IMG/VR virus record: IMGVR_UViG_3300010885_008822
Location: 1-21,752 of that record
Origin: a virus
Length of the DNA stretch: 21,752 nucleotides
Strand: one strand, 5' to 3'
Made by a program: the position numbers and the translations under genes. How positions within the stretch are numbered: position 1 is the stretch's first letter; every line of letters begins with the position of its first letter. The notes under the pieces are model-generated. The model saw nothing but the letters and a program-made list of their open reading frames with translations, did no database searches and was not told the origin of the DNA. Positions 202 through 20,519 of the stretch are shown here, piece by piece.

Positions 202-224
202 ATTATAGCGAATACCGCTGACAT
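202..224 (-). promoter_or_regulatory. Early promoter copy A
   Basis: On the minus strand ATGTCAGCGG (224-215) is followed after exactly 7 bp by TATAAT (207-202). The same arrangement occurs four more times in this arm. It drives the gene starting at 173. It overlaps the stop codon of the 225-338 gene, and unlike copies B, C and E it has no upstream GGGGCGC block. Confidence 0.7.
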
Positions 225-369: not shown

Positions 370-392
370 ATTATAAGGGCTACCACTGACAT
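370..392 (-). promoter_or_regulatory. Early promoter copy B
   Basis: ATGTCAGTGG (392-383), 7 bp, then a perfect TATAAT (375-370) on the minus strand. It reads into the 37-residue gene starting at 338. The conserved tandem GTTAT/GGGGCGC block lies 42-70 bp upstream (425-453). Confidence 0.75.
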
Positions 393-424: not shown

Positions 425-453
425 GTTATTTATTTGTTATAATTCGGGGCGCA
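425..453 (-). repeat. Upstream regulatory block, copy B
   Basis: On the plus strand two GTTAT words start at 425 and 436, 11 bp apart, followed 10 bp later by GGGGCGCA (446-453). The first GTTAT starts 42 bp, and GGGGCGC 63 bp, from the ATGTC element of promoter B. Identical distances occur at copy E. This is probably a binding site for a regulator on one DNA face. Confidence 0.65.
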
Positions 454-480
454 AAAAATTTGAGGTATTGCTACCCAAAT
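453..480 (-). terminator. Intrinsic terminator after the 486-893 gene
   Basis: On the minus strand ATTTGGGTA (480-472) can pair with TACCTCAAAT (467-458), with one bulge and one G-U pair, around a four-base GCAA loop. Six T residues follow (458-453). It begins 5 bp past the stop codon at 486 and closes the unit that starts at promoter D. Confidence 0.65.
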
Positions 481-485
481 TAGTT

Positions 486-893
486 TTAGCGTTGCTCTAT
501 TCGCCAAGAGTGAGCAAGCAACACACGAGAACGCAACACGCATTCCATTTTTAGAAATCCTAAGAAATAACTTTCGCCATCACTAACACGCATTTCGTTA
601 GAATAACTTTTTACGCCTAACGCATTTAGTTCATCAAGTAAGTTTTTTACTTTTACAAACTCACTCGTAGCAAAACTATCTAATTCAGCAGAATAACTAC
701 GACCATTTTTAGCAATTAGCATTGTGTCATTTTCATAGTCATAGTTTAGATAAACATTACTAAGGTTGATTAGTTTGTTATGAATAGCAGAATGTTTTTC
801 ACCAATAGGCAATTCTGCGATAGTCGCATAAAACTTGCGATAGTCGCTAAGTGATAGAAGGATTTGGGTTTCTTTCCAAGTTTTTAGTTTCAT
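486..893 (-). CDS. Hypothetical protein (135 aa)
   Basis: This is the largest leftward gene in the window, and I do not recognise it. The 135-residue product is mixed and soluble-looking, Tyr- and Leu-rich, with no obvious catalytic motif or membrane segment. The ATG at 893 follows the shared leader AGAAATGAGAAATAAATG. In that leader a four-codon mini-ORF (MRNK) ends in TGA overlapping this start (ATGA), which may couple translation. It lies 30 bp after the 56-residue gene at 924-1094 and ends at a terminator. Confidence 0.75.
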   Translation of the reverse strand: MKLKTWKETQILLSLSDYRKFYATIAELPIGEKHSAIHNKLINLSNVYLNYDYENDTMLIAKNGRSYSAELDSFATSEFVKVKNLLDELNALGVKSYSNEMRVSDGESYFLGFLKMECVLRSRVLLAHSWRIEQR

Positions 894-923
894 TTATTTC
901 TCATTTCTTTTTTAGTTAGTTAT

Positions 924-1094
924 TTAGTTTTCGTCTTCAAGTCTTCGCTTGATTATGTTGATTGCGTATTTCATTCCAACACAAACATCACAATTAGGAT
1001 TATCTTCATTACAAGTTGCGATAGACTTTTGAATTTCAGTGATTATCTTCCAGCGTTCAACTTCTCTGGTAAGCAATTCAATTCGTTCATTCAT
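924..1094 (-). CDS. Small Cys-containing protein (56 aa)
   Basis: This 56-residue protein looks mostly helical and is charged at both ends. A Cys cluster (Cys28, Cys35, Cys38; C-x6-C-x2-C) sits in the middle. Three Cys could bind a metal with one further ligand, but this is not a named motif. The ATG at 1094 follows the repeated AGAAATGAGAAATAAA leader, again with an overlapping MRNK mini-ORF ending at the start. It lies between the 48-residue gene (102 bp upstream) and the 135-residue gene (30 bp downstream), probably in one unit. Confidence 0.65.
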   Translation of the reverse strand: MNERIELLTREVERWKIITEIQKSIATCNEDNPNCDVCVGMKYAINIIKRRLEDEN

Positions 1095-1196
1095 TTATTT
1101 CTCATTTCTGTTAGTAGTGATTTAGTTTTTTATTTGCTAATAAGTTTATTTGCGATTTCTCGGCTCACCTTATTAGGCTCACAAACTAAATAAGTT

Positions 1197-1343
1197 TTAT
1201 TTGTAGTCTCTAAGTTTCATCAAGTTAGACAACTCGGCAAACTCGGTATTGGACATAAAATCTCCAAACTGAGCAATCCACATCAACTCACGATAACGGA
1301 TAGCCTGAACAGCGTTTAGACCTGATTTTGATTTCTTAGCCAT
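1197..1343 (-). CDS. Hypothetical small basic protein (48 aa)
   Basis: First gene of the unit driven by promoter D. The 48-residue product has a Lys/Ser-rich N terminus (MAKKSKSG) followed by a predicted helical region. I chose the ATG at 1343 because it directly follows the shared AGAAATGAGAAATAAA leader. An in-frame ATG inside that leader would add only MRNK. A longer reading from 1406 would run through the promoter and is unlikely. Function is unknown. Confidence 0.65.
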   Translation of the reverse strand: MAKKSKSGLNAVQAIRYRELMWIAQFGDFMSNTEFAELSNLMKLRDYK

Positions 1344-1372
1344 TTTATTTCTCATTTCTTTTAGGTATTTAT

Positions 1373-1395
1373 AGATTAGCAGTAGCCACCGACAT
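1373..1395 (-). promoter_or_regulatory. Early promoter copy D
   Basis: ATGTCGGTGG (1395-1386), 7 bp, then TAATCT (1378-1373) on the minus strand. The -10 is the weakest of the five copies. Two GTTAC words at 1428 and 1439 keep the 42-bp distance and 11-bp period of the upstream block, but the GGGGCGC word is missing. It reads into the genes at 1343, 1094 and 893. Confidence 0.65.
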
Positions 1396-1439
1396 TTAGG
1401 GGACATTTTGGGGTGTGTCGCCTAAGCGTTACCAAACTG

Positions 1440-1523
1440 TTACTTTTTCTTTTCGGCTTCCAACTTGGCAGAGTTAGCACGGACGATTTGAGCCATAACG
1501 GCTTTTAGTTGTTTTTCATTCAT
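1440..1523 (-). CDS. Very small leaderless gene (27 aa)
   Basis: The 27-residue product is a short amphipathic, Lys-rich helix (MNEKQLKAVMAQ... ending AEKKK). Promoter C ends only 6 nt before the ATG at 1523, so the transcript should begin at or near the A of the start codon, with no ribosome binding site. The placement of a perfect copy of the early promoter is the main evidence that the gene is real. Function is unknown. Confidence 0.5.
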   Translation of the reverse strand: MNEKQLKAVMAQIVRANSAKLEAEKKK

Positions 1524-1529
1524 ACTTAC

Positions 1530-1552
1530 AGTATAAGGCTAACCACTGACAT
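1530..1552 (-). promoter_or_regulatory. Early promoter copy C (leaderless)
   Basis: ATGTCAGTGG (1552-1543), 7 bp, then TATACT (1535-1530), followed after 6 nt by the ATG at 1523. The conserved upstream block is 11 bp, about one helical turn, further away than in copies B and E. Confidence 0.7.
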
Positions 1553-1595
1553 TTTAGGGAGCGACACGCCGTATTTAGGGGGTTATTTATTTATC

Positions 1596-1624
1596 GTTAT
1601 CATTTCGTTATTTTTCGGGGCGCA
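1596..1624 (-). repeat. Upstream regulatory block, copy C
   Basis: GTTAT starts at 1596 and 1607 (11 bp apart), and GGGGCGCA occupies 1617-1624 (10 bp later). The internal spacing matches copies B and E exactly. The block sits directly beyond the T-run of the preceding terminator. Confidence 0.65.
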
Positions 1625-1662
1625 GAAAATTGGGGGCATGTCAATTAGACACACCCACCAAT
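1625..1662 (-). terminator. Probable intrinsic terminator of the five-gene unit
   Basis: On the minus strand ATTGGTGGGTGTG (1662-1650) can pair with CATGCCCCCAAT (1640-1629), with a bulged T and G-U pairs, followed by TTTTC. It starts right after the stop at 1663. The imperfect stem and short T-run keep confidence moderate. Confidence 0.5.
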
Positions 1663-1722
1663 CTACTGATTGATAAATAGCCATATGCCTAAGCCTATAA
1701 CTATTAGGGCTATTACCTCCAT
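1663..1722 (-). CDS. 19-residue putative membrane peptide
   Basis: The peptide is almost entirely hydrophobic (MEVIALIVIGLGIWLFINQ), long enough for one membrane helix. The ATG at 1722 comes just after the stop of the 48-residue gene, and the G-run at that gene's end could act as ribosome binding site. It is the last gene of the unit, directly followed by a terminator. Coding is inferred from its position and composition only. Confidence 0.45.
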   Translation of the reverse strand: MEVIALIVIGLGIWLFINQ

Positions 1723-1724
1723 GG

Positions 1725-1871
1725 CTACCCCCCAAGCAAACTAGATAGCCAGTTACCAGCCTGATAGCCTACTACACAGCCAGACACACCAGCCCAATTT
1801 ATCTGGGATACGAATGACCACGCTGTTATTAGGAATAAGCCTAGACCTGTAAATACAAAGGGCTTAGTCAT
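1725..1871 (-). CDS. Small membrane protein (48 aa)
   Basis: The 48-residue product has two hydrophobic stretches (about residues 5-22 and 25-46) rich in Gly, Trp and Val, so it probably has one or two membrane helices. The start overlaps the stop of the 26-residue gene (ATGACTAA, frames shifted), which suggests coupled translation. Two further very small membrane peptide genes flank it. Function is unknown; small phage membrane proteins can be holin-like, antiholin-like or superinfection-exclusion factors. Confidence 0.55.
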   Translation of the reverse strand: MTKPFVFTGLGLFLITAWSFVSQINWAGVSGCVVGYQAGNWLSSLLGG

Positions 1872-1944
1872 CACGCTTACCCCTTTCCTTATCCTTGAAG
1901 AATAGATACGCTACTGCTAACAATAGAATAGTCTCCATACCCAT
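1864..1944 (-). CDS. 26-residue putative membrane peptide
   Basis: A hydrophobic N-terminal half (residues 4-16) is followed by a highly charged tail (KDKERGKRDD), which suggests a single-pass membrane peptide with a cytoplasmic tail. The start is a TAATG overlap with the stop of the upstream 51-residue gene, and its own end overlaps the next start. These tight overlaps support real coding despite the length. Confidence 0.5.
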   Translation of the reverse strand: MGMETILLLAVAYLFFKDKERGKRDD

Positions 1945-2099
1945 TACACACACCTACATTTCTTTACTGAGATTTTGTTATTCTTTACTACCACGGATGC
2001 GATAGTGTGGCAAGACTTACAAGCATAAGCCTTTACAATAGGCATAGCCCTATTGCGTAGTGTTTTGATAGTAGTTAGTGCTAGTAGTGATAGCCCCAT
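1944..2099 (-). CDS. Small zinc-ribbon-like protein (51 aa)
   Basis: Two Cys pairs, CxxC (Cys27, Cys30) and CxC (Cys48, Cys50), are separated by a short beta-type stretch, the layout of a minimal zinc ribbon. The N-terminal 20 residues are basic and partly hydrophobic. The ATG at 2099 follows AAAGAAAGGTAACAC, the same leader as the preceding gene. It may bind nucleic acid or be a structural Zn protein; there is no sequence basis for choosing. Confidence 0.6.
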   Translation of the reverse strand: MGLSLLALTTIKTLRNRAMPIVKAYACKSCHTIASVVVKNNKISVKKCRCV

Positions 2100-2113
2100 T
2101 GTGTTACCTTTCT

Positions 2114-2299
2114 TTACCATAGGTTAGCGGTAGAGTTGCCAAATACTTCAAAGTCAAATGTAGCATTAGGGTTATTCTTGATTAGTTCCTGAGTAGCAAG
2201 GATGATTTCTTCTGCCTTAGCCCACGAGTGAACTTCATAGACAGGTGAGATAGTGTTAGTGCCATTGAAGACATTGATTTTTAGGGATAGAATGTTCAT
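2114..2299 (-). CDS. Hypothetical small protein (61 aa)
   Basis: First gene of the five-gene unit driven by promoter E. The 61-residue product has a beta-rich start and a central helix (AKAEEIILATQELIKN), with no membrane segment or metal motif. I chose the ATG at 2299 because of the GAAAGGTAAC ribosome binding site just upstream. A longer reading would begin inside promoter E. I do not recognise the family. Confidence 0.65.
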   Translation of the reverse strand: MNILSLKINVFNGTNTISPVYEVHSWAKAEEIILATQELIKNNPNATFDFEVFGNSTANLW

Positions 2300-2327
2300 T
2301 GGTGTTACCTTTCTTTGTTGTGTTTCT

Positions 2328-2350
2328 ATTATAGCGTTACCCACCGACAT
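2328..2350 (-). promoter_or_regulatory. Early promoter copy E
   Basis: ATGTCGGTGG (2350-2341), 7 bp, then a perfect TATAAT (2333-2328). It reads into the five small genes from 2299 down to 1663, with a short leader carrying AAAGG. Confidence 0.75.
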
Positions 2351-2382
2351 TGTTATCAAGATAGTTAGTGTTTCTGTGTACC

Positions 2383-2411
2383 GTTATACAATCGTTACAT
2401 TTGGGGGCGCA
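2383..2411 (-). repeat. Upstream regulatory block, copy E
   Basis: GTTA words start at 2383 and 2394 (11 bp apart), with GGGGCGCA at 2404-2411 (10 bp later). The distances to the promoter element (42 and 63 bp) equal those of copy B. Confidence 0.65.
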
Positions 2412-2583: not shown

Positions 2584-2679
2584 CTAAATATTAAGTAACA
2601 ATTTGATAACGAATTGAAACAAATACATAAATGTGGGAATAAAAATGATTGCACCCAGTAGATAAAGTGCTTTTTTCAT
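2584..2679 (-). CDS. 31-residue single-helix membrane peptide
   Basis: MKK is followed by a hydrophobic stretch across residues 4-30, consistent with one membrane helix. There is no cleavage site, so it is more likely a membrane peptide than a secreted one. The start is a TAATG overlap with the end of the HTH gene, which points to coupled translation and possibly a joint role. Function is unknown. Confidence 0.55.
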   Translation of the reverse strand: MKKALYLLGAIIFIPTFMYLFQFVIKLLLNI

Positions 2680-2852
2680 TATGGCAACTTCAAATCGGGG
2701 GTATGTTTAAGCAATCCATGCTTAACAGCCCATACGTTAATCAATTTATATGACACACCAACCTCTTTTGCAATTTCTCGTGTAGTTTTGGTCTTTAGTT
2801 GTTCTGATAGCCATGCTTTGTCTTCATACAACTTGTCGAAATGCTTATCCAT
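2679..2852 (-). CDS. Small helix-turn-helix DNA-binding protein (57 aa)
   Basis: Residues about 24-47 read TREIAKEVGVS, then an aromatic/basic recognition helix, the pattern of the HTH domain found in many small phage regulators and in DNA-binding domains beside HNH endonucleases. The N terminus is acidic and helical. The ATG at 2852 has a good ribosome binding site (GGAGAG), and a TGC-TATACT extended -10 sits 23 bp upstream. It is the first gene left of the divergence point, where phages often place a regulator. Its target is unknown; nearby repeats are candidates. Confidence 0.75.
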   Translation of the reverse strand: MDKHFDKLYEDKAWLSEQLKTKTTREIAKEVGVSYKLINVWAVKHGLLKHTPDLKLP

Positions 2853-3601: not shown

Positions 3602-3636
3602 TTGTCAAATTAATTGGTAACAAAAACGTAACGATT

Positions 3637-3709: not shown

Positions 3710-3721
3710 TAATTTATGGTG

Positions 3722-20461: not shown

Positions 20462-20519
20462 AACTGTGTTATAATAACAATTATATAACAGTTCAGTAAA
20501 AGGGGGCTATAATTAGTCT
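20462..20519 (+). promoter_or_regulatory. Tandem promoters of the protease/scaffold gene
   Basis: The first -10, TGT-TATAAT (20467-20475), is set in AACTGT (20462-20467)...ACAGTT (20488-20493), an inverted repeat like that at the reductase promoter. Its message would carry AAAGGGGG (about 20499-20506) before the ATG. The second -10, TATAAT (20508-20513), lies 6 nt before the ATG at 20520 and would give a leaderless message. The gene may thus be read in two modes. Confidence 0.55.

Follow-up and report, generated by a model that had tools for sequence, protein, structure and literature searches.

Promoters and upstream blocks in the window

The 21.8-kb IMG/VR virus record IMGVR_UViG_3300010885_008822, analysed over its whole length (21,752 nucleotides, G+C 40%; hereafter the window), carries five minus-strand promoters, A to E, of the form TGTCRGYGG-N7-TANNNT (Table 1). 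Near three of them, B, C and E, two GTTAY words on the plus strand are followed by the GC-rich word GGGGCGCA. Genes and promoters lie on the minus strand, which places this block upstream of B, C and E. A preliminary description had treated it as a single unit in helical register with the promoter element, and the coordinates and spacings it gave proved exact. Judged on sequence comparisons, the block is two separate, neighbouring and independent elements: a pair of direct repeats set at whole helical turns from the -10 hexamer, and a GC word that is exchanged between phage lineages.

On the plus strand the pair reads GTTAY-N6-GTTAY and is found at 425-440 (B), 1596-1611 (C), 2383-2398 (E) and 1428-1443 (D). 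Its near word lies 42 bp from the last base of TGTCRGTGG at promoters B (base 383), D (1386) and E (2341), and GGGGCGCA lies 63 bp from that base in B and E. At promoter C (element end 1543), pair and GGGGCGCA are both exactly 11 bp further out. Promoter D keeps the pair at 42 bp without a GC word, and promoter A (element 223-215) has neither. The pair occurs seven times in the window, the seventh match being at 20474-20489, against 0.31 expected, a count reached by 0 of 100 shuffles. The three plus-strand copies of GGGGCGCA, each 21 bp from the start of the first GTTAY word, compare with 0.19 expected, and one shuffle in 100 reaches three. The joint pattern of pair and GGGGCGCA is likewise found three times, and its backward control not at all.

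Read in the sense of transcription, the pair is a head-to-tail repeat, RTWACRA-N4-RTWACRA. Two perfect copies stand in the opposite orientation, on the strand that encodes the structural genes (Table 1); no -10 was recognised at the usual distance from either.

Table 1 Promoters, boxes, GC words and helix-turn-helix gene of the window
Feature	Position	Strand	Remarks
Promoter A: TGTCAGCGG-N7-TATAAT	202..223	-	directly 3' of a stop codon; no block
Promoter B: TGTCAGTGG-N7-TATAAT	370..391	-	precedes small gene 225-350
Box B: ATAACAA-ATAA-ATAACAA	423..440	-	65 bp upstream of promoter B -10 hexamer; relatives share both box and distance
GC word (TGCGCCCC, transcription sense)	446..453	-	before promoter B; after terminator-like hairpin and U-tract, about 454-476
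Promoter D: TGTCGGTGG-N7-TAATCT	1373..1394	-	
Box D: GTAACAG-TTTG-GTAACGC, imperfect	1426..1443	-	65 bp upstream of promoter D -10; no GC word
Promoter C: TGTCAGTGG-N7-TATACT	1530..1551	-	
Box C: ATAACGA-AATG-ATAACGA	1594..1611	-	76 bp upstream of promoter C -10, one turn further
GC word (TGCGCCCC)	1617..1624	-	before promoter C; after terminator-like hairpin and U-tract, about 1625-1660
Promoter E: TGTCGGTGG-N7-TATAAT	2328..2349	-	
Box E: GTAACGA-TTGT-ATAACGG	2381..2398	-	65 bp upstream of promoter E -10
GC word (TGCGCCCC)	2404..2411	-	before promoter E
Perfect box GTAACAA-TTTG-ATAACGA	2595..2612	+	opposite orientation
57-aa helix-turn-helix protein	2679..2852	-	candidate reader of TGTCRGTGG element
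Perfect box GTAACAA-AAAC-GTAACGA	3617..3634	+	upstream of plus-strand gene at 3716

Spacing of the pair in related phages

Scanning IMG/VR for the promoter element returned matches in at least 119 stretches, and 413 non-redundant promoters from related phages, whose records are fragments, made up the set of relatives. Their array promoters, AAATGTCRGTGG-N7-TATAAT, head small genes; the element stands before most small genes of the array, with 12 to 25 copies, all on one strand, in each of five relatives (G001-G005). The search pattern preset much of the element, so that only the flanks and variable positions of the 413 promoters are informative: they show a strong TATAAT -10, no conserved -35 box and, about 7 bp below the -10, a pyrimidine-purine step that we take as the presumed start site.

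Among pairs in these relatives the five-base cores are predominantly separated by 6 bp. We measured distances from the start of each pair to the -10 hexamer, which was located through the promoter element; a looser -10 search also picked up some TAAAAT matches at the element's own A-rich margin (giving box C 55 bp, where the true value is 76). Regions more than 75% identical were collapsed. Pairs start 65 bp (21 pairs), 64 bp (7), 55 bp (6), 76/77 bp (4) and 86/87 bp (2) from the -10, with others scattered. For the 55 pairs lying 40-100 bp from the -10 the Rayleigh p is about 5e-9, and for the 26 pairs outside 64-66 bp it is about 0.02; related sequences are not fully independent, and these p values serve as guides. 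Control pairs with gaps of 3, 4, 5, 7 or 8 are fewer and unphased. Single RTNACRA words stand at 65 bp in 22 of the 413 promoters versus 0-3 at shifts of 3-7 bp. Whole-turn spacings in the relatives thus bear out the suggestion that a protein would bind one face of the DNA, and the pair has the upstream, single-face placement of a class I activator site.

The partner of that placement appears to be RNA polymerase. At promoters of TTGACA type the pair likewise lies 65 bp from the -10 (G002 15455 and G004 48587; counted by eye in the sequences, also G001 18469 and G002 16447), from which we conclude that it is positioned relative to the polymerase and not to TGTCRGTGG. The proposal that it works specifically with the promoter element is not supported by this result. 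Loss of words or spacing in relatives had been named as the refuting observation, and the outcome was split: the GTTAY pair is kept, and GGGGCGCA is lost.

The promoter element would itself replace the -35 box. Lying 7 bp above TATAAT, AAATGTCRGTGG is presumably recognised by an activator of the phage, in the manner of T4 MotA and the MotA box. The dozens of T4 middle promoters are built alike, with a good -10 and, where a -35 box would be, an element belonging to the phage; they differ in that the MotA box stands 12 +/- 1 bp above the -10 (PMC2988021), whereas TGTCRGTGG stands at 7 bp, outside the T4 MotA-type arrangement. No MotA or AsiA relative was identified, and we found no published description of AAATGTCRGTGG-N7-TATAAT promoters. 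As a host promoter class the element was rejected: 257 Gb of cellular genome sequence held 46 exact matches, in unrelated taxa, which by our own estimate is about the number expected by chance.

A lineage-specific GC word

The second element behaves quite differently from the pair. In the sense of transcription the word is TGCGCCCC in the window, G001, G002, G003, L041 and L095; TGCCGACC in G004, L025, L028, L097, L067 and L109; GCACGCC in G005 and L033; TGCCCGCC in L020; GCTCGGGCA in L059; GGTCGGGC in L040 and L049; and TTTGGGCAAA in L058. Tabulated by phage over 19 records, the words form a diagonal broken only by single copies of another word in L049 and L040 and by a one-base variant, TGCGCACC, in TGCGCCCC phages. 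Where intergenic DNA is homologous, the word has been swapped between phages with both flanks conserved. It is restricted to the promoter array and stands mostly just after the preceding transcription unit, behind a hairpin or U-tract; 7 of 54 copies fall inside open reading frames of at least 70 amino acids (five records). Orientation varies among TGCCGACC phages, at 10/4 in G004 and 3/6 in L097. The word is thus invertible, its gap to the pair ranges from 3 to 7 bp, each element occurs alone, and other words replace it in relatives, which together tell against the idea that GGGGCGCA belongs to the site of the pair.

We suggest that this GC-rich 8-mer (TGCGCCCC in the window, other words in other lineages), lying after the preceding transcription unit, would be bound by a lineage-specific and probably phage-encoded protein, as an operator or boundary element. 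The 57-aa helix-turn-helix protein is an unlikely reader. Its homologues open the promoter array in 13 records. Across 12 aligned sequences, drawn from phages that between them carry six different GC words, the recognition helix, SYKLxNxW, does not vary; because the helix stays constant while the word takes six forms, we set this protein aside for the GC word. It may instead be the best candidate reader of the conserved promoter element TGTCRGTGG. Its structural model has three helices (mean predicted local distance difference test score 76), and a structure search returned weak generic matches only.

The nearest known counterpart is the stoperator of Cluster A mycobacteriophages, and the GC word might be such a site, at which a lineage-specific immunity repressor blocks initiation or elongation. 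We regard this as possible but doubtful. As with the sites of Cluster A, the GC words are many, short and intergenic, and each phage uses one sequence where its relatives use others (PMC6550527). Stoperators of Cluster A have a set orientation and are non-functional when reversed (PMC9283540), whereas TGCCGACC phages carry both orientations and so lack the alignment with transcription; the GC words also differ in marking transcription-unit boundaries, and no repressor or lysogeny gene was identified among the few proteins scanned from these fragment records. An operator or boundary element with its own lineage-specific reader remains our preferred account of the word.

A second dispersed word, GGCGTGTCG / CGACACGCC (window 1562-1570), recurs in many relatives, in either orientation; where the GC word changes from lineage to lineage, this one stays constant.

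Candidate readers of the pair

Identifying a reader for the pair depends on the host. No annotated phage matched the DNA of the window phage. Its portal protein is nearest to those of Streptomyces phages, at no more than 45% identity, and its ribonucleotide reductase is 62% identical to that of Actinomycetia phage DSL-LC01, in which no promoter of TGTCRGTGG type was found. Relative G004 encodes WhiB. Together with LexA-like CGAACANNTGTTCG sequences, the portal and reductase affinities and WhiB point to an actinobacterial host, probably among freshwater actinobacteria, and we infer one resembling Nanopelagicales. The LexA-like palindromes occur at several array promoters of L013, L014, L020, L025, L028 and L033, often occupying the place where the RTWACRA pair would sit.

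The best reading of the pair is a class I activator site whose protein would probably be an MtrA-type regulator of the host. It has the form of an OmpR/PhoB-family site of this type: two head-to-tail half-sites with GTnAC cores, an 11-bp period and a 7+4+7 layout. A CRP-family palindrome was ruled out, the extended half-sites being head-to-tail. With the first half fixed, the second is GTnAC-like and not GaAAC-like, which favours MtrA over GlnR given what we take to be the GlnR consensus. The Streptomyces MtrA site is (G/T)T(G/A)ACC-N5-GT(G/T)ACN, with GTCACAgcg repeats in Mycobacterium and A/T-biased sites in Corynebacterium (PMC5650626, PMC13189361), and it is similar to the GlnR site (PMC9045223). 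The boxes described here share with these the head-to-tail repeat, GTnAC cores, 11-bp period and an A/T bias at low GC (PMC5650626, PMC13189361, PMC9045223); they differ in being putative sites, in phages, at many promoters and whole turns from the -10. MtrA exceeded the score threshold in 262 of the 297 genomes from the actinobacterial class, and 12 phage records yielded no Trans_reg_C protein. In three small actinobacterial genomes (L206, L212 and L219) a possible -10 before a sugar-binding-protein gene has a box 75 bp above it.

We propose that a dimer of an OmpR/PhoB-family response regulator, most likely host MtrA or a GlnR-like relative, would bind the pair. The pair starts at about -77 to -60 from the presumed start, 65 bp above the -10 or one to two turns off, and from there the bound dimer could contact RNA polymerase from one face and activate as a class I factor. 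Its upstream position leads us to favour an activator over a repressor. Cyanophage genes are under host PhoBR control through Pho boxes (PMC10976474), a parallel in which a host response regulator from this family likewise governs genes of a phage; there the host phylum and regulator are different, and the present boxes are distinguished by strict helical phasing over many promoters.

Taken as a whole, we hold with moderate confidence that the block comprises two independent sites, a class I box for a host regulator and a lineage-specific GC word, above a -35-less phage promoter. Several points count against this account. The pair is present at a minority of promoters only, and 11 gap-9 pairs cluster in a different phase (p about 0.008), for which we offer no explanation. 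In an actinobacterial order with small genomes, 121 genomes gave about 103 box matches, counted by eye, against about 83 in the backward control, a weak over-representation; a first 23 host-like genomes had given 25 versus 10. The host is known by inference, activation is preferred to repression or DNA bending on grounds of position, and the regulator is named from a consensus match. No protein that changes in step with the GC word turned up in the fragment records.

The pair could instead be bound by a phage-encoded direct-repeat binder, whether excisionase/Apl-like or the 57-aa helix-turn-helix protein, acting as activator or repressor. Apl-type factors bind direct repeats one helical turn apart (PMC7498355), the helix-turn-helix gene accompanies the array, and its recognition helix and the box are both invariant. 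We nevertheless judge such a binder unlikely: the box fits a site published for a host regulator, its distance to the polymerase is kept at TTGACA-type promoters too, and TGTCRGTGG offers the helix-turn-helix protein an equally conserved candidate target. Nor does an UP-element-like site, touched by the alpha C-terminal domains of RNA polymerase with no activator, seem probable. Such a site would account for the 11-bp period, the A+T-rich surroundings and the fixed position relative to the polymerase, but in place of A/T tracts the words show an invariant C together with a conserved purine. The usual UP sub-sites also lie nearer the promoter than the start of the pair at about -77. Still less probable is the original view that a single regulator uses the entire block, with the GC word, as its operator; the gap between TGCGCCCC and RTAAC is fixed at 5 bp in the window and, for G001 and G002, in most regions of this kind, yet elsewhere it varies over 3-7 bp, phages differ in the word but agree in the pair, and each element occurs without the other. 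Chance, or descent from a few copied intergenic regions, is very improbable, since four promoters of different genes in the window share the pair and the phasing survives the collapse of similar regions, even if some intergenic regions are homologous between phages.

Should a host two-component regulator read the boxes, infection would be wired to a host environmental signal, an arrangement known for cyanophages and, in our search, not found reported for actinophages. The precise phasing makes the class I mechanism directly testable, and the lineage-specific word provides a ready comparative system for the joint change of a DNA-binding protein and its many sites. A broader picture, which we offer as speculative and think unlikely to hold in full, is of an actinophage family with lineage-private boundary words that work in either orientation, unlike stoperators, and co-evolve with their reader, combined with phased host two-component boxes and a new class of -35-less promoter. 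A further set of phages, L023, L027, L065 and L075, has DnaA-box-like GTTATCCACA words preceding its promoters, and ACGAAAGG is frequent there.

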